From Candidatus Rokuibacteriota bacterium (GTDB taxonomy: Bacteria; Methylomirabilota; Methylomirabilia; Rokubacteriales; CSP1-6): a stretch of 64,000 nucleotides of DNA. Each line of letters opens with the position of its first letter. The stretch's first letter is position 1. The notes beneath the pieces are model-generated. The model was not told where the DNA came from. It saw only the letters and a program-made list of their open reading frames with translations, and ran no database searches. A program made the translations under genes and the position numbers. The DNA lies in contig QHSP01000035.1 in assembly GCA_003220495.1 (NCBI GenBank), positions 1 to 64,000 of the forward strand. The letters run 5' to 3'. Positions 1 to 17,697 of the stretch are shown here, piece after piece.

Positions 1-406
1 GCTTGCCGGGATGGCCGATGCGGCGTCGGTAACGTTTGATCGGCACCATCCCATGCCGCTTCAGGATGTCGCACGCCGTCGAACGGCCGGGCAGCGGCCA
101 TCGCGGCTGGCGCTTGTGCAACAGCGCCAGCAGCTTTTTGCCGCCCCAGGTCGGATGCCGACGCCGGGCGGCCAGGATCGCGCTCACGATCTCGTCGGAC
201 GTCTGATTCGGCGAGCGGCGCGGCCGCCGCGAGCGCTCCTCCAAGCCCGCCGGCCTGTGGCGCAGGTAGCGGTCGATCCACTTGTAGCCGGTCTTGCGGG
301 CGACGCCGTACAGCGCGCACAGCTCCGTGAGCGACAGCGCGTCGCGAAGGAAGTCGGCGATGAACTGCGTTCGCTGGTCCATGGGTGATGCAGCCCTCCA
401 CGGCAT
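1..406 (-). CDS. IS481-like transposase, 3' end cut by window edge
   Basis: The frame starts at an ATG (406) preceded by AAGGAGG and stays open to base 1, giving about 135 residues. The N-terminus reads as a helix-turn-helix (ELCALYGVARKTGYKWIDRY, about residues 31-50). It is followed by an arginine-rich linker (LEERSRRPRRSPNQT) and the GGKKLLALLHKRQP segment typical of the region before the DDE core in IS481/IS3-type transposases. The catalytic domain lies outside the window. A terminal repeat lies just upstream (443-490), so this is the 5' end of an insertion element. I assign IS481 rather than IS3 because a single frame carries the HTH into the core, but this is not certain. Confidence 0.8.
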   Translation of the reverse strand, partial: MPWRAASPMDQRTQFIADFLRDALSLTELCALYGVARKTGYKWIDRYLRHRPAGLEERSRRPRRSPNQTSDEIVSAILAARRRHPTWGGKKLLALLHKRQPRWPLPGRSTACDILKRHGMVPIKRYRRRIGHPGK

Positions 407-442
407 CGGCACCTCCTTGGTGCCTTGCCAGTGTTTTGGGTG

Positions 443-499: not shown

Positions 500-568
500 G
501 TCTAACATCGCAGTACAGCGGCCGGAGCGAGCAGCGCGAGCTCCGGCCGCTGACCGCGGTCGTTGGAC
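500..568 (+). repeat. attC-like integron recombination site 1
   Basis: The site opens with GTCTAAC (500-506, fits RYYYAAC) and closes with GTTGGAC (562-568, fits the GTTRRRY core), 69 bases in all. Inside is a perfect 12-bp inverted repeat, AGCGGCCGGAGC (517-528) with GCTCCGGCCGCT (540-551), around an 11-base loop. Outside the cores, CCG/CGG extend the symmetry. This matches the layout of integron gene-cassette attC sites. No integron integrase gene is in the window. Confidence 0.65.
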
Positions 569-576
569 GGACAGAA

Positions 577-963
577 TTACCCGAGAGGTTTGATGTGCTG
601 ACGAAGCCAGTCGGTCAGCCGGCGGTGGTCGAGGCGACCTGTGGCGAGATCGAGTATGAGGTGTTCCTGCGCATCGGTGGCGGCATCGATCTCGTGACCG
701 TTGAGGACCAGGAAAGTCTCCATGGCGCCATGCCCGACGCGCTTGTTGCCATCGACGAAAGGGTGGCCCTGAACCAAGGCCAGACACAGTGCCGCGGCCT
801 TCTCGGGAAGAGTGGGGTACAAGTCACTACCACCGAATGTGGCTTTGGGTTGGGCGACTGCCGACTCAAGCGCACCGAAGTCCCGAATGCCGGACGCGCC
901 GCCTGTCGCCGCCAAGAGACGCCGATGGAGTTCGACGATCTCTCCCAGCGTGAGGTAGCGCAT
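577..963 (-). CDS. doc: Doc-type Fic-fold toxin (death-on-curing protein)
   Basis: This 128-residue protein carries the Doc/Fic signature HPFVDGNKRVGH at residues 67-78. Length and N-terminus (MRYLTLGEIVELHRRLL) fit the Doc family, whose members phosphorylate EF-Tu and halt translation. The ATG overlaps the stop of the upstream antitoxin gene by 3 bases (ATGA), as expected for a translationally coupled toxin-antitoxin pair. The pair lies between two attC-like sites and runs opposite to the assumed cassette direction, as in many integron-borne toxin-antitoxin cassettes. All catalytic-motif residues are present, so the toxin looks intact. Confidence 0.92.
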   Translation of the reverse strand: MRYLTLGEIVELHRRLLAATGGASGIRDFGALESAVAQPKATFGGSDLYPTLPEKAAALCLALVQGHPFVDGNKRVGHGAMETFLVLNGHEIDAATDAQEHLILDLATGRLDHRRLTDWLRQHIKPLG

Positions 964-1157
964 CAGGCGAGGCGCCGGTACAGCTCCTCGTTCTTCTGTA
1001 ATACACGCTTGGCGGCGGCCTCGAAGTCGTCGTCCCGAGTCGCCAGCAGATCCGCAACTGCGGCCCGGGCCAGATCCTCCGGCGTGAGGCCAAGGCGCTC
1101 CGCCTCCCGACGTAGGCGCTCACCCTGCGCCTGCGACAGGTCGATGGTGACTTTCAT
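963..1157 (-). CDS. Antitoxin partner of Doc
   Basis: A 64-residue protein starting MKVTIDLSQ, with an N-terminal ribbon-helix-helix-like or Phd-type DNA-binding segment and a charged C-terminal helix ending RVLQKNEELYRRLA. That type of tail is seen in antitoxins paired with Doc-family toxins. I chose the ATG at 1157 because an upstream in-frame start (1196) would run into the attC-like site. It precedes and overlaps doc. Such antitoxins neutralise the toxin and usually repress their own operon; that role is inferred from position and size. Confidence 0.8.
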   Translation of the reverse strand: MKVTIDLSQAQGERLRREAERLGLTPEDLARAAVADLLATRDDDFEAAAKRVLQKNEELYRRLA

Positions 1158-1184
1158 GTGGGTACTGTACCGTGTCGCCGGGCC

Positions 1185-1247
1185 GTCCAACAACATGGTG
1201 GAGCGGACCGGCCCAGAGCGGCCGGCCGCTCACCATGCACGTTATAC
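1185..1247 (+). repeat. attC-like integron recombination site 2
   Basis: It begins with GTCCAAC (1185-1191) and ends with GTTATAC (1241-1247), which departs from GTTRRRY at one position. ATGGTGGAGCGG (1195-1206) pairs with CCGCTCACCAT (1226-1236) leaving one unpaired G, like the extrahelical bases that orient attC. An inner CCGGCC/GGCCGG stem completes the fold. CCG and CGG flank both ends, as in site 1. The two sites share architecture but not stem sequence, as attC sites of different cassettes do. Confidence 0.6.
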
Positions 1248-1256
1248 GGACAATTG

Positions 1257-1430
1257 ATGATTGAGGCTGTACGCAAGACGCTGGAGCTTTGGAGGACGCA
1301 AGGTGTGCGATTGAATCCTGGGGCGTCTCGCGAGGAGATCGCTCGCCTACAGGGCTTGGTGGGTGACCGCCGCAAGCCTCCTGCTTGCGGTACCCTCGTC
1401 GCTTCGCTCCTCGGCGGAGGCTCATGGTGA
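1257..1430 (+). pseudogene. Truncated SMI1/KNR4-like (SUKH) cassette gene
   Basis: An ATG directly after attC-like site 2 opens a 57-codon frame, MIEAVRKTLELWRTQG, followed by LNPGASREEIARLQ. That resembles the beginning of SMI1/KNR4 (SUKH) proteins, where a Pro-Gly-Ala-Ser-rich stretch precedes the helix EEIARLE. After about 35 residues the similarity stops at a GC-rich hairpin (CCGCAAGC / GCTTGCGG, about 1370-1390), so the gene is a remnant. A lone GTTGGGC core-like heptamer follows at 1433-1439. The family assignment rests on a short match. Confidence 0.4.
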
Positions 1431-1515: not shown

Positions 1516-1977
1516 ATGGGAAGGATCGTCGTAACAGAATTCGTCTCGCTCGACGGTGTCATGGAGGCTCCTGGCGGCGGAGAGGGCTACAAGCACGCAG
1601 GTTGGACCTTCAAGATCGATCGCGGAAAGGAGGGCGACAAGTTCAAGCTCAATGAGACCCTCAACAGCGAGGCGCTACTGCTTGGGAGGGTGACCTATGA
1701 GGGCTTCGCTGCGGCCTGGCCGTCGAGGACCAATGAGTTCGCGACAAGTTCAACAGCATGCCCAAATATGTCGTCTCCTCGACCCGCGGTCGTCCTCGGA
1801 AGCGGCAAACGCCTGTTCGGCGATACGACCGACAAGAAGCGCCTGCGGCTCGCGGACTCAAAAACGGTCGGCGACGGGATTACGATTCTCATCTTCCAGC
1901 GGGCGGGTGAAGTCGCTAACAGGGAGGCCCGTGAGGGCGACAACCGGAGCGCCATCCGGGCGGATCGTCGCTGCTAG
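1516..1977 (+). pseudogene. Dihydrofolate-reductase-family (RibD C-terminal fold) gene, internally deleted
   Basis: The N-terminus MGRIVVTEFVSLDGVMEAPGG and the segment EALLLGRVTYEGFAAAWP are typical of YyaP/YwjB-type dihydrofolate reductase family proteins. After TNEFA a one-base loss shifts the frame: a GCG-GAC-AAG-like codon order would restore KFNSMPKYVVSST. The reading then jumps to PAVVLGSGKRLFGDT from near the C-terminus. About 50-60 residues of the usual middle are missing and the original frame is regained, so the ORF survives without a complete fold. It sits last in the cassette-like series and its 3' end abuts the next operon. Most likely inactive. Confidence 0.7.
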
Positions 1978-3254
1978 CGGATCGCCATCTCGGTCGGTTC
2001 GACGCCGCGTAACCCGTAGCGGCCCATGAAACGCAGGAGGCCACGGCTGTAGCCACGGAGCGTGCCCATCCCGGAGGCCTGTAGCGCGATGTGACGCTCG
2101 ATGTGGTTCTGGGCTGCGCTCTTGATGGCGTTGGTCCCGACCGCCATCCAGTCGCGTCCGGCGCGGAAGAGCGCCGCCATCCGGCCGTCGTAGAAGGTCG
2201 CCACCAGATCGAGCCAGGCGGTGAGCATCGCCGTCTGCATCGTCGCGTACGGCCGAAGCGCCGCCTCGAGCTCCGCGAGCGAGGGAGGCTGCTCGGATTT
2301 CGCGAACGGCGCCAGCGCGTCGGCCACCAGCTCGGCCGAGCGAAGCGCCAGGAGCACGCCGGGCGAGAGCATCGGGTCGACGAAGCCGAAGGCGTCGCCG
2401 ACCATCACCCAGCCGGGCCCGAGACCTCGGTGTGAGATCAGCTGGTAGTTGGCGTAGGTCGCGACCGAGGTGACGCGCTTGCTGCCGCCGCCGATCGTCG
2501 ACAGCCACGCGTCGGTCGCGATGGCCCGCTCGAGCCGCTCGGCCGGGCTCGCGCCGAGCCGAGCGGCGTCGTCGCGCCCCAGCACGATCCCGATCGAGAG
2601 CCGCTCGCGGAGCGGGATGCACCAGCTCCAGCCCGCGTCGAGACGCCTGATCAGCACCTGTCCGGGCTCGTCGTCCCAGGCGAAGTTCTCGAAGTGGGCG
2701 AAGTGCGCGACGTCCTTGCGCGGCCCGAAGCGGGCGCCGATGCTCAGGGCGCGCGCGCCGAGGCGGGCGCGCCCGGTGGCGTCCACGACGAGATCGGGTT
2801 GCCGGCCTTCGAGCGACGGCGCGGCGGCCAGGGTTTCGGGCGCCAGGCCGAGCTCGCGCCCACCTTCGCTGATCGGCTCCACGCGCGCGTGGGCCACCAC
2901 GCGCGCGACCCCACACGCGACCGCGCGCGCGAGCACCGCATCGTCGAATCGCGGGCGCGGAATGTTGTAGGCGTATGGGAACACGCCCGGCGCGAAGCGC
3001 TCGAAGGAGAAGCTGAAGCGGTCGTTCGGGGACCAGATGAAGGACACGCCCGGCTTCACACGGCTGAAGCTCGCGGTCTCCTCCTCGAGGCCGAGGCGCT
3101 GGAGGATCGGGACGACGGCGGGCACCAGGGATTCGCCGACGAGGAGCTCGGGACGACGGCCGTCGTCGAAGAGCGTGACCTTCGCACCCTGGCGCGCCAG
3201 CAGGATGGCCAGGGCGGCGCCGGAGGGTCCGGCGCCGACAATCGCGACTCTCAT
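1974..3254 (-). CDS. Flavin-dependent halogenase-like FAD enzyme (carrier-protein type candidate)
   Basis: A 426-residue FAD protein with the dinucleotide motif GAGPSG (residues 7-12) and GESLVP (40-45). It has WSWCIP at 209-214, fitting the WxWxIP halogenase signature, and FVDPMLSPG at 291-299, fitting the Fx.Px.Sx.G motif. Lys67 in SRVKPGVSF is at the place of the conserved lysine in carrier-protein-dependent halogenases. GDAFGFVDP is the usual FAD ribityl-binding region. It is the last gene of the 7504-1974 operon, coupled by ATGA to the adenylating enzyme. The carrier protein in the operon would be the natural substrate holder. A non-halogenating oxidase or geranylgeranyl-reductase-like role remains possible, since related flavoproteins keep parts of these motifs. 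Confidence 0.65.
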   Translation of the reverse strand: MRVAIVGAGPSGAALAILLARQGAKVTLFDDGRRPELLVGESLVPAVVPILQRLGLEEETASFSRVKPGVSFIWSPNDRFSFSFERFAPGVFPYAYNIPRPRFDDAVLARAVACGVARVVAHARVEPISEGGRELGLAPETLAAAPSLEGRQPDLVVDATGRARLGARALSIGARFGPRKDVAHFAHFENFAWDDEPGQVLIRRLDAGWSWCIPLRERLSIGIVLGRDDAARLGASPAERLERAIATDAWLSTIGGGSKRVTSVATYANYQLISHRGLGPGWVMVGDAFGFVDPMLSPGVLLALRSAELVADALAPFAKSEQPPSLAELEAALRPYATMQTAMLTAWLDLVATFYDGRMAALFRAGRDWMAVGTNAIKSAAQNHIERHIALQASGMGTLRGYSRGLLRFMGRYGLRGVEPTEMAIR

Positions 3255-4711
3255 CGCCGAATCTTGCCGCTTGGGGTCCTGGGGACTGCATCCACGACGG
3301 TAAACTCGAGCGGCACCTTATACGAGGACAAAGCACGGGCGCAATGCGATCTTAGGGCATCGAGATCGCAGCCGGCCGGGTCTACGACGACCTCGGCGCA
3401 GGGCACCTCGCCCATGCGAGCGTGGGGGCGCCCGAAGACGCGAGATTCCTTGATCCCCGGGAACTGGTTGATGCAGTCCTCGACTTCCTCGGGGAAGAAC
3501 TTCAAGCCGGCTACCAGGATGAGTGCCTTCTTTCTGCCTTTCAGGTGGAGGGCGCCTGACCGGTCCAGGAAGCCAAAGTCACCGGTGAGGAACCAGCCCT
3601 CGCTCGCGACCTGTTCGCGAAGCCGCCAGGGCGAGTAGTAGGCCGAGAAGAGCCCGTCACCCCTCACCCCGATTTCACCCAACGTCTCCGGAGGTAGAAG
3701 CTTTCCGTCATCCGAGAAGATCGCCACGGCATAGCCGGGCACCGGACGACCGACCGAGGTTGCCGGCAGACCCTCGGTGCCCAGGTTGATACACGGCAGC
3801 CCGGCTTCGATGATGCCGTAGGCCTGACCGACCGGGACGCCGTAGACCGACTCGAAGCGCTCCATCACCACCGGCGCGATCGGCGCCGCGGTCGAGAGCG
3901 TCACGCGAATGCTCGAGAGCGGATCGCTCGGTCCAAGGTTGCCCATGCGCTCGAAGTGGAGCGGCGCCGCGTAGAGCACGCTCGCGCGGAGGCGGCGCGC
4001 GGCGTCGACGATCGCTTTCGGGAGCGTGTCCGGACACAGGAGGATGTGGGAGCCGGCGCGGACGTACGCCGTGATCGTGACCGCGAAGTGGTAGGCGAGG
4101 GGAAGCACCCACAGGATGCGATCCTCCTCGCTGAACTTGAGGACACGGTCGGAGGCCTCCACGCGCGCGGCGGTCGCCTCGTGGGACAGCACGACGCCCT
4201 TGCTCCGCGCGGTCGTTCCCGACGTGAATCGGATGAAGGCGGCGTTCAGCTTGGTGAACTCCACCGGGGCCTCGGCGCGGCGATCGATCCACTGGAACGC
4301 ATAGCCCTCGCACTCGCCGCCCTTCACGACCGCGCGGCGTGCGGAGGCGTCGGCGTGGCCGGGCGCGCTCGGGAGCGGCGCGGCCTTCGGCCACGAGAGG
4401 CAGCCGTTCAGCTGCACCTCGCGGACGATCTCCGCGATCTCGGTCGGCGTGAGGTTGCTGGCGAGCGGCACGAAGCAGGCGCCCGCGGCGAGCAAGCCGA
4501 ACGCGGCGGGCAGATACGTGAGATCGTTCGGGGCCAGGAGCCCGATACGCTGGCCGGGCTCGACGCCCTCGGCCTTGAGGAATGCGGCCAGCCGCTCGGC
4601 TTCGCTGGCGAGCTGGCCATAGCTCACGGACCGCCCCGACCGCACGTCGGTGACCGCGCGGCGCGGCGAATGGCGCTCGGCCGTCGCGAAGAGAATCTCG
4701 GCGAGGTTCAT
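3251..4711 (-). CDS. Acyl/aryl-AMP-forming ligase (ANL superfamily)
   Basis: A 486-residue class I adenylate-forming enzyme. The phosphate loop is FTSGTTARSKG, the hinge region includes GWFLTGDFGFLDRSGALHLKGR, and the catalytic A10 lysine lies in RTPSGKIRR at the C-terminus. The enzyme should activate a carboxylic acid as acyl-AMP and pass it to a thiol, here most plausibly the carrier protein at the head of the operon rather than CoA. The start at 4711 has GGAGGGG just upstream and overlaps the previous stop (ATGA). The substrate cannot be read from the sequence. Confidence 0.85.
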   Translation of the reverse strand: MNLAEILFATAERHSPRRAVTDVRSGRSVSYGQLASEAERLAAFLKAEGVEPGQRIGLLAPNDLTYLPAAFGLLAAGACFVPLASNLTPTEIAEIVREVQLNGCLSWPKAAPLPSAPGHADASARRAVVKGGECEGYAFQWIDRRAEAPVEFTKLNAAFIRFTSGTTARSKGVVLSHEATAARVEASDRVLKFSEEDRILWVLPLAYHFAVTITAYVRAGSHILLCPDTLPKAIVDAARRLRASVLYAAPLHFERMGNLGPSDPLSSIRVTLSTAAPIAPVVMERFESVYGVPVGQAYGIIEAGLPCINLGTEGLPATSVGRPVPGYAVAIFSDDGKLLPPETLGEIGVRGDGLFSAYYSPWRLREQVASEGWFLTGDFGFLDRSGALHLKGRKKALILVAGLKFFPEEVEDCINQFPGIKESRVFGRPHARMGEVPCAEVVVDPAGCDLDALRSHCARALSSYKVPLEFTVVDAVPRTPSGKIRR

Positions 4712-5931
4712 CGCCCCTCCGCGCAGCGCGCGGCCGCCCGGCCGACGGCCTCGCCGGCCGCCAGGCACGTACCGATCACGCGCGCCGAGCCCAGCGCCTC
4801 GTGCGTGGCGCTCATGCAGCGCCCGGCGACGAAGAGGTTCTCGACGTCGCGGGCCTGGAGGCAACGGAGCGGTATGTCGTAGTGAGCCCGGTCGTCGAGC
4901 CACTCGTAGGTGGCGCCGAGGCGGCCCTCTTCCCAGAGCTCGATGGGCCAGCTCGCCCGGGCTACGCCGTCGTCGAACTTGCGGCCGGTCAGCACGTCGT
5001 CGCGCGTGAGCTGATAGCGCCCGATCACGCGGCGGCTCTCGCGGACGCCGACCTGCGGCGCGGCGTGGGAGACGAACGCCCGGGAGAACGCCGGCAAGGT
5101 CTTCAGAAACTCCGTGACGGCGAGGGCGCGCTTGCGGCCTTCCTGCTCGGCCACCGTCAGGAAGTCGCGGCTCGGGGGCAGCTCCTCGGTGATTCCGCTC
5201 AAGGTGAGCTTGCAGACGATCTCGCCGGGCTGGGGCGACGGACCCAGCGCGAGGTTCGCCGCGCCCTTGGGCAGGCGGCCCTCTTGCTCGGCGGTCACGA
5301 GCGACCGCAAGAGCGCCACCCGCGGGCCCGATCCGAGCGCCGCGGTGTCGACGTGCTGCAGGACGAAGACGAGGGACGGCAGCTGGCGCTCGGCCAGCGG
5401 CGTCGTTGCCGTGGCGGTGCCGGCGAGATGCGCCAGGGCGGCGTCGCCGCTGGCGTCCACGACGGCGCGCGCTGCCAGCTCGACGACGCGCTCCCAGGTG
5501 GCGACGCGTACCGCTTCGACACGACCCGGGCGGCTCTCGAGCCCCGTGAGGATCGTGTGGAGATAGACGTCGAGCCCGGAGGCCGACATGGTGAGCTCGT
5601 CGGCGAGACAGGCGAACGCGAACGGAGTGTACGGCAGGACGTGCGTTCGCCCCCGGCGTATCGGCGCGCCGCAGCCGGGCATGGCCGCGAGGCGGCGGGC
5701 CACGTCGTTTGCGAAGCCCTCGTTGAGCGGCTCGGGCGGTCCGGCCGACGAGGTCAGATAGAGGCCGCAGACCGTGCTCACCATGCCCGCGGTCGCCATG
5801 CCGCCGAGAAAGCCATAACGCTCGACGAGCGCGGTGCGAGCGCCCGTGCGCGCCGCCGTCACGGCGGCGGCCATTCCGGCGGCTCCGCCGCCCACCACGA
5901 CGACGTCGTAGCTCAGTGAGCCGCTCGCCAT
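4708..5931 (-). CDS. FAD-dependent oxidoreductase (FAD_oxidored family)
   Basis: A 407-residue flavoprotein with an N-terminal Rossmann motif VVGGGAAGMAAAVTAARTG, then ERYGFLGGMATAGMV, which is typical of the FAD_oxidored (PF12831-like) group. A C-terminal FAD segment reads NLFVAGRCMSATHEALGSAR. No signal peptide or membrane helix is evident, so it should be cytosolic. I start it at 5931, giving a 19-base overlap with the preceding gene; a longer in-frame start exists but lacks family-like sequence. In the operon it may desaturate or oxidise the carrier-bound intermediate; that is inference. Confidence 0.82.
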   Translation of the reverse strand: MASGSLSYDVVVVGGGAAGMAAAVTAARTGARTALVERYGFLGGMATAGMVSTVCGLYLTSSAGPPEPLNEGFANDVARRLAAMPGCGAPIRRGRTHVLPYTPFAFACLADELTMSASGLDVYLHTILTGLESRPGRVEAVRVATWERVVELAARAVVDASGDAALAHLAGTATATTPLAERQLPSLVFVLQHVDTAALGSGPRVALLRSLVTAEQEGRLPKGAANLALGPSPQPGEIVCKLTLSGITEELPPSRDFLTVAEQEGRKRALAVTEFLKTLPAFSRAFVSHAAPQVGVRESRRVIGRYQLTRDDVLTGRKFDDGVARASWPIELWEEGRLGATYEWLDDRAHYDIPLRCLQARDVENLFVAGRCMSATHEALGSARVIGTCLAAGEAVGRAAARCAEGR

Positions 5932-7238
5932 CCCATCCCCTCGCGGATCGCCTCGATGATGCGCGCCACCTCCTGGGTTTCCATCGCGCCCTCGATCCAG
6001 GATACGACCAGGTTGTTCTTGATCCCGCAACGGTTGAAGAATACGCCGACCCCAGGCCGCGGCAGCACCGATGGAGCGTGATATGCGTTGGTGACCCGCC
6101 GTCCGAAGAGCTTCTCGAGCGCGGGTGGAAAATCCGCCAGATCCGCACAGTTGAAGGAAAACGTCTCGCGGGTCGCCGTGCCGGGCAGGTCGCGCAGCAT
6201 CAGCGCGAGCGGCCGGTACTTCAGGAACTCCATCGCCACGGCGTTGGCGTCGATTTGCCCGTCGCGGAGCGCGTCCGTCATCTGCTGGCGCAGCGCCCGC
6301 GTGAGGCGGTCCACGTCGGCCGTCTCCGAGGGCTTGAACCGCGCGAAGTGGAATGCGAGCACGTTGCCGAACGTCGCGCCCGGCTCCCCCTTGGGTCGCA
6401 GGTCGATGGAGACCGGGACCAGAAACGGCAGGTCGGGGAGGCCGCGCCGTCGCCAGAGGTCGGCCATGGTGCTACCGACCAATGCGAGACGCCAGCAGAT
6501 CTCGCGGGTCGAACGCACGCCGCCGAGGCCGTGATCGTCGCCGACGAAGCTCGCCTGCTCGAAACGGACCCGTCCCGGCGACGTCAACCCGGTGCCCGGC
6601 GACACCGGCGCCTCGGGAACCAGCGTCCGCATGTAGCGCTGACTGCTGCGCCCGAGTCGTCCGCGCTCCTTCAGCGGCCGCGGATCAGGCCCGGTGACGA
6701 ACACCGACGGCGCGCCCCCCCACGGCGCGCGCCCGTCGCTCTCGTCGAGGTGCGCGAGGTGCGCGAGCAAGTTCTGTCCGCCGCGCGGGTCCATGAGCGG
6801 GTGAAACCAGGTCACGACGAGGGCGCTCTGCAGCCCCGCGGCTTCGGCCGCGCCGTCGAGGATCGCGAAGCGCAGCGGTGGCTCGCGGCGGGGATCGATC
6901 GCGGCGTTGAGCTCGGCCTCGAGCTCGGCGTGAAGCGCTCCAGGTGAGCTGAGACGCTTGTGCCGCACGGGCGGGGCGGCCAGCGCCGCGCGCGCCCCGG
7001 CGGCCCAGTGGAGCGGTCCCCACGGGAGCCGGCGGCGGAGGCGGGCTGACGGCCACGGGCAGAAGTCGAGAAATCGGTCGAGAGCCCGCCCAATGCGCGC
7101 GTGGTCGAGCGGCCCGTCGCAGTGGACGACCATGAGCGTGTTGTTGCTGATGCCCTCGCGCTTCCAGAGCGCCTGCATCGCTACTAGAACGAGATCGGCG
7201 CCGCGAAGGGGCAGCCGGCGGACGCGTGGTGTGCTCAC
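5913..7238 (-). CDS. Condensation-domain-like acyltransferase
   Basis: A 441-residue protein with the organisation of condensation / wax-ester-synthase-like acyltransferases. The motif WFHPLMDPRGG keeps the catalytic histidine (His146) and aspartate (Asp150) of HHxxxDG, but Phe replaces the first His and Pro the Gly. Further conserved-looking blocks are PFLVPVSIDLRPKG and SFNCADLADFP, near the regions where such enzymes carry DFGWG/NxxxR-type elements. It starts at GTG, coupled to the carrier-protein stop (GTGA). It probably joins the carrier-bound acyl group to an amine or alcohol. Standalone condensation enzymes of this sort are poorly predictable. Confidence 0.65.
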   Translation of the reverse strand: MSTPRVRRLPLRGADLVLVAMQALWKREGISNNTLMVVHCDGPLDHARIGRALDRFLDFCPWPSARLRRRLPWGPLHWAAGARAALAAPPVRHKRLSSPGALHAELEAELNAAIDPRREPPLRFAILDGAAEAAGLQSALVVTWFHPLMDPRGGQNLLAHLAHLDESDGRAPWGGAPSVFVTGPDPRPLKERGRLGRSSQRYMRTLVPEAPVSPGTGLTSPGRVRFEQASFVGDDHGLGGVRSTREICWRLALVGSTMADLWRRRGLPDLPFLVPVSIDLRPKGEPGATFGNVLAFHFARFKPSETADVDRLTRALRQQMTDALRDGQIDANAVAMEFLKYRPLALMLRDLPGTATRETFSFNCADLADFPPALEKLFGRRVTNAYHAPSVLPRPGVGVFFNRCGIKNNLVVSWIEGAMETQEVARIIEAIREGMGWRAAH

Positions 7239-7504
7239 GCGCTCCGTCGACAGATGTAAGCCGCGAAGGCGCGCGCGGTTCTGATGTTGTCGGTGACGAG
7301 GTCCTCGTCAGGCATCCAGAACCCGTAGTGAGCCTCGATGAACAGCAAGACTTTGAGGAGCGCCATCGAGTCGAGTCCGGCCAGCTCGAGATCGTCGTCG
7401 GGTCGCACCGGCCGGGTCCGCGCCATGATGGTCGTGTTGATGAAGTCCGTCACGGCTCTCGCGACCTCTTCGGGATCGAGCCGTGAGAGATTCCCGGTGG
7501 ACAT
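7235..7504 (-). CDS. Acyl/peptidyl carrier protein
   Basis: An 89-residue protein with the 4'-phosphopantetheine attachment motif LAGLDSMALLKVL; the serine of DSM is the expected attachment site. The following FIEAHYGFWMPDEDLV matches helix III of acyl carrier proteins. It is the first gene of the five-gene operon and would tether the intermediate for the adenylating, oxidising and condensing enzymes downstream. The ATG at 7504 is preferred over 7543, which adds residues untypical of carrier proteins. An AT-richer stretch (7505-7560) upstream may hold the operon promoter. Confidence 0.9.
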   Translation of the reverse strand: MSTGNLSRLDPEEVARAVTDFINTTIMARTRPVRPDDDLELAGLDSMALLKVLLFIEAHYGFWMPDEDLVTDNIRTARAFAAYICRRSA

Positions 7505-7599
7505 GATGGGGTTCAATATCCTTATGCGGCTCTTACTTTGCAAGTCTTACGAAATGCCGCCGAGCGCCGCTCCGTCTAACAGGCCAGGAGGTCACGGAA

Positions 7600-15652: not shown

Positions 15653-17697
15653 GTCCTGGCCTCCCGCTCGAAGCGCAGGTTGCCGTGCTCGTCCACCACA
15701 CCGCGCCAGCCCGGCGGCACGATCGTCGTCGCGCCGAACTCCTCGACGACGGCAGGACCACCAAGCGCCGCCCGCTCGGGCAGCCGCTCGCGCTCCCAGA
15801 CCGGGCAGTCGTGCGGCGCGCCGTCGAACCATACGGCTCGGCGCTCGACCAGGGCGGCGTCGAGCGAGTCGGCCGCGCTTCGGTACGGCGCGCCGGAGGG
15901 CCTGGGGACCAGGCCGTAGGCTGCCAGCCGCGCGTTGACGAGCTCGATCGCTGCACCCGGGCTCGAGTGGCCGTAGGCGGCGAGGTGCTGGCGGTGGAAC
16001 GCGTCCTCGATCGCGTTTGGTGCGAGCCCGTGCGCGCCCGCCTCGCCGACCGCCACGTTCAGCTCGAACGCCTGGCCGTGGTAGCGCAGATCGAGCGAGC
16101 GGACGAGCCGCTGCTCCTGGGCGGCGAAGCCTTCGAGCCCCAGCTGGTGGCGTGCCGCGTCCTGCATCTCGCCGAAGAGCTCGAGTGCCACGGCGAGGCG
16201 ATCGCGCAGCGGGCCGACCCGCGTCCTGACGTCGTCGTGCTTGATCTGTGAGGCGAGGAGGCCGAGCGCCGAGAAGTTCCCGGGATGGCGGGGCACGAGC
16301 ACACGCGGAATCCCGATCTCCTGGGCCAGCGCGAGGGCGTGCATCGGGCCAGCGCCCCCGAAGGCGATCAAGGTGAAGTCACGCGGGTCGTGGCCGCGCT
16401 GGATCGAGATCTCGCGGATCGCCGAATTCATCCGCGCCACGGCGATCGTGATGACACCCTCCGCGAGCGTCTCGACCGTCATCGAGCGCCCGAGGCGCGC
16501 GCCCAGCTCGGCGAGCGCCCGGCGCGCGCTCGTCGCGTCGATCGCGATACTGCCGCCGAGGCGCTTCGTCGTCCCGATGCGGCCGAGCACCACGTTGGCG
16601 TCGGTCACCGTCGGCTCGGTCCCGCCGAGGCCATATGCGACGGGGCCCGGCGAAGCGCCGGCGCTGCGCGGCCCCACCTGGAGGCTTCCATCGACGTCGA
16701 GCCACGCGATCGAGCCGCCGCCCGCGCCGACGCTGTGCATGTCGAGCTGCGGGACCTTGACGGGAAACGCGCCGAGCATGCCGTCGGACGTGGTCAGGGG
16801 CGCGAGATTGCGCACCAGGCAGACGTCGGTCGAGGTGCCGCCCATGTCGTACGTGATGAAGTCGCGCACGCCCGCGACCTCGCCCACGAAGCAGGCCTGG
16901 CTCACGCCGCCCGCCGGCCCCGAGAAGATCGTCTTGATCGGCAGGCGCCGCGCCGTGTCCGTCGTCATCATGCCGCCGCTCGAGGCCACGGTGAGGACCC
17001 CGTGCGCGTAGCCGGTAGCGCGCAAACGCTCCTCGAGCCCAGCCAGATAGCCGTCCATGATCGGCTGAAGATACGCATTGAGCACGGTGGTCGAGAAGCG
17101 CTCGAACTCGCGATACTCGGCGACGACGTCCGCAGAGCACGAGACGGGCAGCCGCGGATACCGACCCTTTGCCGCGTCGGCCACAGCGCGCTCGTGAGCC
17201 GGATTCAGGTACGCGTGGAGAAGACAGACGGCGAGCGCCTCGGCGCCCGAGGCCGCCGCGGCGTCGAGCGCCCGCTCGACGCTGGCCGGATCGAGCTCAA
17301 CCAGGACGGCGCCGTCGGCCGCCAGCCGCTCGACGACCTCGAAGCGGTGCTTGCGCTCGACGACCGGTTTGGGACGCACGAAGGTCGGCACGAAGAGCGC
17401 CGGAATGTTGCGCTTGGTGCGGCCGATCTCGATCAGGTCGCGAAAGCCGGCCGTCGTGAGGATCGCCACGCGCGCGCCGCGTCTCTCGAGCACCGTGTTG
17501 GTCCCGACGGTGGTGCCGTGGACGAGGCGCCGTACGTCGCGGCCGGCGATGCCCAGGGCCTGAAGGCCGGCCAGGACCGCGGCAGCTTCGTTACGCGGCT
17601 GCGACGGGACCTTGGTGACGACGACCTTGCCGGTCGCGTCGTCGACCGCCGTCAGATCGGTGAAGGTGCCGCCGACGTCGATCCCGACGATGAACAC
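15649..17697 (-). CDS. hyuA: Hydantoinase A / oxoprolinase alpha-type subunit (ATPase)
   Basis: A 682-residue ASKHA-fold ATPase subunit starting FIVGIDVGGTFTDLTAVD (phosphate 1 loop). LVHGTTVGTNTVLERRG, ITYDMGGTSTDVCLV (phosphate 2) and SVGAGGGSIAWLD follow, all typical of hydantoinase/oxoprolinase alpha subunits. HyuB follows directly. I chose GTG at 17697 because the Rossmann-like start begins there and the longer frame runs into the divergent aminotransferase gene. Only 40 bases separate the two divergent starts, so promoters must overlap or lie within the genes. Confidence 0.9.
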   Translation of the reverse strand: MFIVGIDVGGTFTDLTAVDDATGKVVVTKVPSQPRNEAAAVLAGLQALGIAGRDVRRLVHGTTVGTNTVLERRGARVAILTTAGFRDLIEIGRTKRNIPALFVPTFVRPKPVVERKHRFEVVERLAADGAVLVELDPASVERALDAAAASGAEALAVCLLHAYLNPAHERAVADAAKGRYPRLPVSCSADVVAEYREFERFSTTVLNAYLQPIMDGYLAGLEERLRATGYAHGVLTVASSGGMMTTDTARRLPIKTIFSGPAGGVSQACFVGEVAGVRDFITYDMGGTSTDVCLVRNLAPLTTSDGMLGAFPVKVPQLDMHSVGAGGGSIAWLDVDGSLQVGPRSAGASPGPVAYGLGGTEPTVTDANVVLGRIGTTKRLGGSIAIDATSARRALAELGARLGRSMTVETLAEGVITIAVARMNSAIREISIQRGHDPRDFTLIAFGGAGPMHALALAQEIGIPRVLVPRHPGNFSALGLLASQIKHDDVRTRVGPLRDRLAVALELFGEMQDAARHQLGLEGFAAQEQRLVRSLDLRYHGQAFELNVAVGEAGAHGLAPNAIEDAFHRQHLAAYGHSSPGAAIELVNARLAAYGLVPRPSGAPYRSAADSLDAALVERRAVWFDGAPHDCPVWERERLPERAALGGPAVVEEFGATTIVPPGWRGVVDEHGNLRFEREART

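Follow-up and report, generated by a model that had tools for sequence, protein, structure and literature searches.

The window (the whole 64-kb stretch of DNA analysed) is contig C60 of a Rokubacteria genome of 6.0 Mb in 159 contigs. Close to its start, a toxin-antitoxin operon lies between two attC sites, with the features listed by position in the window:

1-412, minus strand: IS481-like transposase, N-terminal part, truncated at the contig start (LZ_Tnp_IS481 and helix-turn-helix Pfam matches)
500-568, plus strand: attC1, the site of the preceding cassette (R1 21.4 bits, R2 33.9 bits, fold); boxes R'' GTCTAAC at 500-506 and R' GTTGGAC at 562-568, crossover point 562/563
563-1241, plus strand: gene cassette, very probably, from the TT of the attC1 R' box through the G of the attC2 R' box, as delimited by DNA similarity
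577-963, minus strand: Doc-family toxin of 128 aa with the motif HPFVDGNKR (PF02661, TIGR01550, Doc structures)
963-1157, minus strand: antitoxin of 64 aa (co-conserved with doc; weak RHH_1 and NikA-like matches in relatives)
1161-1171, no strand: palindrome GGTACTGTACC, putative operator, 4-14 bases upstream of the antitoxin start
1185-1247, plus strand: attC2, the own site of the Doc cassette (R2 28.9 bits, match to the attC of genome G001); boxes R'' GTCCAAC at 1185-1191 and R' GTTATAC at 1241-1247
1242-1430, plus strand: start or remnant of the following cassette, where copy-to-copy similarity ends; holds a short ORF

The toxin carries the Doc/Fic motif HxFx(D/N)xNKR and exceeded the family cut-off (TIGR01550, 55 bits with a cut-off of 38.65; PF02661, E 8.6e-19); it resembles solved Doc structures (3k33, 3dd7 and others). 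The antitoxin gene is placed as that of a cognate antitoxin, directly upstream in the same operon with its stop overlapping the doc start (TGATG), and is conserved together with Doc at other loci. Its product has a conserved C-terminal KNxELYRRLA and probably a ribbon-helix-helix N-terminus. A phd-doc pair in the strict sense has a Phd-family antitoxin; here no Phd match was obtained in Pfam or NCBIfam, nor any curated family assignment, and the only signals were the weak RHH_1 and NikA-like ones. The palindrome GGTACTGTACC occurs once in the 64 kb vs 0.01 times expected, its core is largely retained in homologous cassettes, and its position would suit autoregulation by the antitoxin. A consensus scan returned no recognisable sigma-70 promoter and no terminator.

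The sequence-only reading had placed two palindromic attC-like sites around the Doc pair, with an unpaired base in the sites and one imperfect box. Both sites are where it had put them: folded as single-stranded DNA they gave z values of -5.7 to -6.5 (attC1 alone, -5.7 to -6.0), and none of 200 shuffles was equally stable. Arm lengths are those of classical attC sites (R'' 7 bases, spacer 7, L'' 8, and 15 from the L' start to R'), and the unpaired bases proved to be extrahelical bases in the left arm, as in attC, so that both sites are directed along the plus strand.

Two covariance models were used, R1 trained on nine attCs from class 1 integron cassettes on plasmids, and R2 consisting of the R1 set plus 11 attCs of relatives, with no sequence from this genome. 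With R1, attC1 ranked first in the 64 kb (21.4 bits, E 0.0057) and attC2 reached 15.8 bits (E 0.15), tied with one chance match at 16087; with R2, attC1 scored 33.9 bits (E 1.7e-6) and attC2 28.9 bits (E 3.5e-5), both on the plus strand, and the runner-up among distinct places in the window 16.2 bits (the Infernal E-values of both models are rough, because the calibration was short). The model scan that had been suggested as a check thus came out positive for both sites. R1 also detected attCs that adjoin intI in relatives. No attC was matched in a scan against Rfam, in which two tRNAs only reached the gathering score, and a strict attC pattern had zero matches in this genome. For covariation, 30 attCs were aligned by placing the two arms around an N spacer, loop lengths varying among attCs. 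Both sides changed in 9 of 16 pairs, with 58 such cells vs 26 in shuffles, and 89% of cells paired but only 25-37% once the arms had been slid; since the alignment was fitted to the known attC layout, this result leans towards that layout. The plus strand has genuine attC sites at 500-568 and at 1185-1247, and attC2, by its R2 score and the covariation, has what marks an attC at a cassette end (R'', L'', L', R', a palindrome and an extrahelical base).

The same cassette, whole or broken, was found in six other genomes of the family (G001, G008, G038, G055, G045 and G019), each time with different neighbours. Their Doc homologues were 71-84% identical to the toxin, some being partial, each was accompanied by an antitoxin of 78-92% identity, and the attCs lay on the strand opposite to Doc. 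In the alignment of these cassettes DNA similarity started on the left at CGTTGGACGG, which is the attC1 R' box, and stopped on the right at CACGTT, the start of attC2 R'. Identity to G001 was 23/61 just outside the left boundary and 35/40 just inside it, 501/584 in the cassette body, 56/59 in the shared attC and 11/57 outside on the right. The similarity is that of a mobile unit, bounded at the G^TT of the R' boxes with flanks that differ among arrays, and limits at GTT are the pattern predicted by IntI recombination at G^TT. The imperfect box is the GTTATAC of attC2, and it is imperfect because its last six bases, TTATAC (1242-1247), come from the next cassette; the boundary alignment makes directly visible how an attC can come to have an imperfect-looking R' box. 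The short ORF within 1242-1430 had no Pfam family match.

An ordinary chromosomal toxin-antitoxin locus surrounded by chance GC-rich hairpins or other repeats is exceedingly improbable. Hairpins are common in this GC-rich genome, and attC2 under R1 alone did no better than one chance match; against this stand strong covariation, R2 scores that nothing else in the window approaches, the presence of intI in relatives and that of further attC clusters in this genome, and the pair of chance hairpins is rejected because the similarity among genomes is bounded exactly at both crossover points. The earlier view of the pair as an integron cassette is borne out by those bounds, and 563-1241 is very probably one gene cassette of a chromosomal integron array in this genome. 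Plasmid records held no close copy of the Doc cassette. In G019 the toxin-antitoxin cassette is followed by a short stretch (L195:3435-3745) whose attC (3683-3745) is 89% like attC2, which would fit the exchange or duplication of an attC.

Counting this genome, seven copies of the cassette are known. Doc is intact in this genome, G001, G045 and G055; in the other three (G008, G038 and G019; L194:1523-1876, L193:4254-4547 and L195:3027-3211) it is broken or cut, with the antitoxin intact. The order of decay is that the toxin goes first and the antitoxin stays, and the seven copies offer a natural experiment in the spread, the decay and the constancy of orientation of toxin-antitoxin cassettes.

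Genome-wide, R2, trained on none of them, found about 11 attCs on six contigs: besides those of the window, three each on C80 and C143, and others on C115, C85 and C102. By the CALIN-type definition an attC cluster needs two or more attCs spaced by less than 4 kb (PMC9668308); attC1 and attC2 are separated by 617 bases, and C80 and C143 hold further clusters. The suggested look for an intI gene on another contig turned up a truncated copy. This sole recognisable intI is on C85, is followed by an attC and the beginning of another cassette, and is an N-terminal fragment covering TIGR02249 positions 1-105 (E 9.7e-33) that is related to 2a3v and 49% identical to IntI1. At the C85 contig end (L127:9933-10694) the truncated intI runs into a cassette-like membrane-protein ORF, which is followed by an attC and then by an ORF start MTVKRMDNVGIVVE; as read from this gene order, the contig end is an integron remnant. 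No intact intI was found in the 159 contigs of this genome, so that present mobility of the cassette is only putative.

The IS481-like element probably ends near 489, an inferred end point about 10 bases before attC1. The only other copy of its fragment at window 1-312 is at the end of C102 (L168:5691-6000), which makes the insertion sequence the probable point of the contig break; C102 and C60 are plausibly neighbours joined via a common IS481, with 3 differences in 310 bases between the copies.

Of the 57 genomes of the family, 24 had intI matches above the TIGR02249 cut-off, among them six of the eight other species of the genus, and 53 had R2 attCs; across the phylum, intI passed the cut-off in 32 of 95 genomes. 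The IntI proteins of relatives are full-length, share about 54% identity with IntI1, and retain both the IntI-specific region and the catalytic motifs. The sequence-only reading had named two outcomes that would count against it, failure of both sites to score and lack of integrons in relatives; the scores given above and these counts show the reverse of each. In all 16 contigs with both, an attC follows intI on its downstream side and shares its strand, so that intI is transcribed toward the array; a placement of the cassettes upstream of intI had been considered and was wrong for these genomes, in which they are downstream. That layout is already known from Treponema (PMC3607928), which belongs to a different phylum. 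Integrons were also seen to be widespread at loci L108-L126 and L144-L155 of other Rokubacteria genomes.

The family was placed in Rokubacteria by way of its member G009, whose locus L177 agrees at 100% identity over 3375 bp with L071 of the MAG Candidatus Rokuibacteriota AR40. Rokubacteria are, as had been pointed out for this DNA, an uncultured lineage outside the classical host groups. The phylum list of integron hosts in PMC8618304 does not include it, and no integron report for Rokubacteria, Rokuibacteriota or Methylomirabilota was found in the open-access literature, where absence is no proof; as an integron host the lineage is apparently unreported. The genomes above extend integrons to this uncultured candidate phylum, in which they are widespread.

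The array could also be a dead relic, an attC cluster without a working integrase in which the toxin-antitoxin pair persists as a selfish or neutral passenger. This has a considerable probability, somewhat short of even. The only intI found is the N-terminal fragment, the IS481-like element sits just before attC1, and several homologous toxins are broken; on the other side, the assembly, in 159 contigs, breaks within arrays and may for that reason lack an intact intI, six other species of the genus have intI over the cut-off, and IntI may act in trans.

Both genes of the pair are on the minus strand, antiparallel to the attC direction, as had been noticed at the outset. In the fetched arrays 45 classified cassettes were parallel to attC. 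Three non-Doc cassettes were called antiparallel, and one of these calls (C80:656-1445) was rejected as an artefact of a GNAT-like ORF running into attC. Doc cassettes were antiparallel in all five cases bounded by two attCs and in both cases with one attC. Fisher's test (antiparallel in 5/5 Doc vs 2/47 other cassettes) gave 8e-6, with counts that are not independent because the Doc copies are related by descent. Doc runs parallel to attC in an Acidobacteria MAG (L028), in two Anaerolineae MAGs (L020 and L042) and in Gemmatirosa (L259), so the reversal, as far as these sequences go, looks like a trait of this Rokubacteria lineage. A wider proposal, that Rokubacteria integrons keep a standing Doc-antitoxin cassette whose reversal is selected and that this addiction module has spread through the arrays of the whole candidate phylum, is considered doubtful; if true, the selected reversal uncouples the operon from array promoters and sets the antitoxin promoter against its own attC.

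The cassette would have been moved by an IntI recombinase acting on the folded bottom strand of its attC. Its cargo is a Doc-family type II toxin-antitoxin operon, in which the antitoxin gene precedes that of the toxin and which is inserted antiparallel to attC. We infer that the operon would be expressed from its own promoter adjoining attC2, and that the antitoxin may repress it at the palindrome GGTACTGTACC. Doc of phage P1 inactivates EF-Tu. By analogy, on loss of the cassette the antitoxin would decay and Doc would act on elongation factor Tu; cells without the cassette would then be disfavoured and the array stabilised. Stabilisation of arrays by toxin-antitoxin cassettes is established in Vibrio cholerae (PMC11551772). 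An addiction mechanism of this kind is favoured for the present cassette as probable though well short of assured; with the toxin broken or cut in three copies, addiction is not strictly enforced.

The reversed operon might instead serve in defence, as an anti-addiction module against homologous Doc systems of plasmids or phages. Anti-addiction has been described in the case of toxin-antitoxin cassettes (PMC8618304), contigs of a viral collection include Doc homologues, and the antitoxin remains whole in the copies with a broken toxin. The viral Doc homologues are, however, at most 53% identical, which makes cross-neutralisation doubtful, and the toxin is intact in four of the genomes (this one, G001, G045 and G055); the defence role is unlikely.

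Integrons are well known to carry toxin-antitoxin cassettes, phd-doc among them (PMC8618304, PMC9668308), and for the chromosomal integrons of Vibrio phd-doc and other toxin-antitoxin cassettes are described (Guerout 2013, Iqbal 2015, both cited in PMC8618304; PMC11551772). The present cassette is like those of Vibrio in that a single attC cassette of a chromosomal integron holds both a Doc-family toxin and its antitoxin. It is set apart by its host and by the orientation of the pair, antiparallel to attC in 7/7 copies, and unlike theirs its antitoxin of 64 aa is probably of the ribbon-helix-helix type, lacking a Phd match in Pfam and NCBIfam. With class 1 integron cassettes on plasmids (aadA1, aacA4 and others) it shares the order R''-spacer-L''...L'-spacer-R', equal spacing and the extrahelical base, whereas it is chromosomal, has GC-rich attCs of other sequence and holds no resistance gene. 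The Doc cassette is of a known kind, a toxin-antitoxin cassette, in an apparently unreported host, and its reversed orientation is conserved.

Plasmid 1 of Gemmatirosa kalamazoonensis, a replicon of 1.1 Mb from another phylum, was scanned as a control, and R2 found ten attCs in 6.4 kb (L259, 827667-834073). This array has one Doc gene, homologous to the present toxin, within its run of ten attCs, but DNA identity was 66.7% over just 58% of the query and, as noted, Doc is parallel to the attCs there.

Beside the array of the window, a run of minus-strand genes occupies 1974-7543. Its first ORF encodes a tryptophan-halogenase-like flavoprotein (tested against Pfam), and the later ones by their look resemble an AMP-ligase, an FAD oxidoreductase, a condensation-like protein and a carrier protein; the run is possibly a small biosynthetic cluster.
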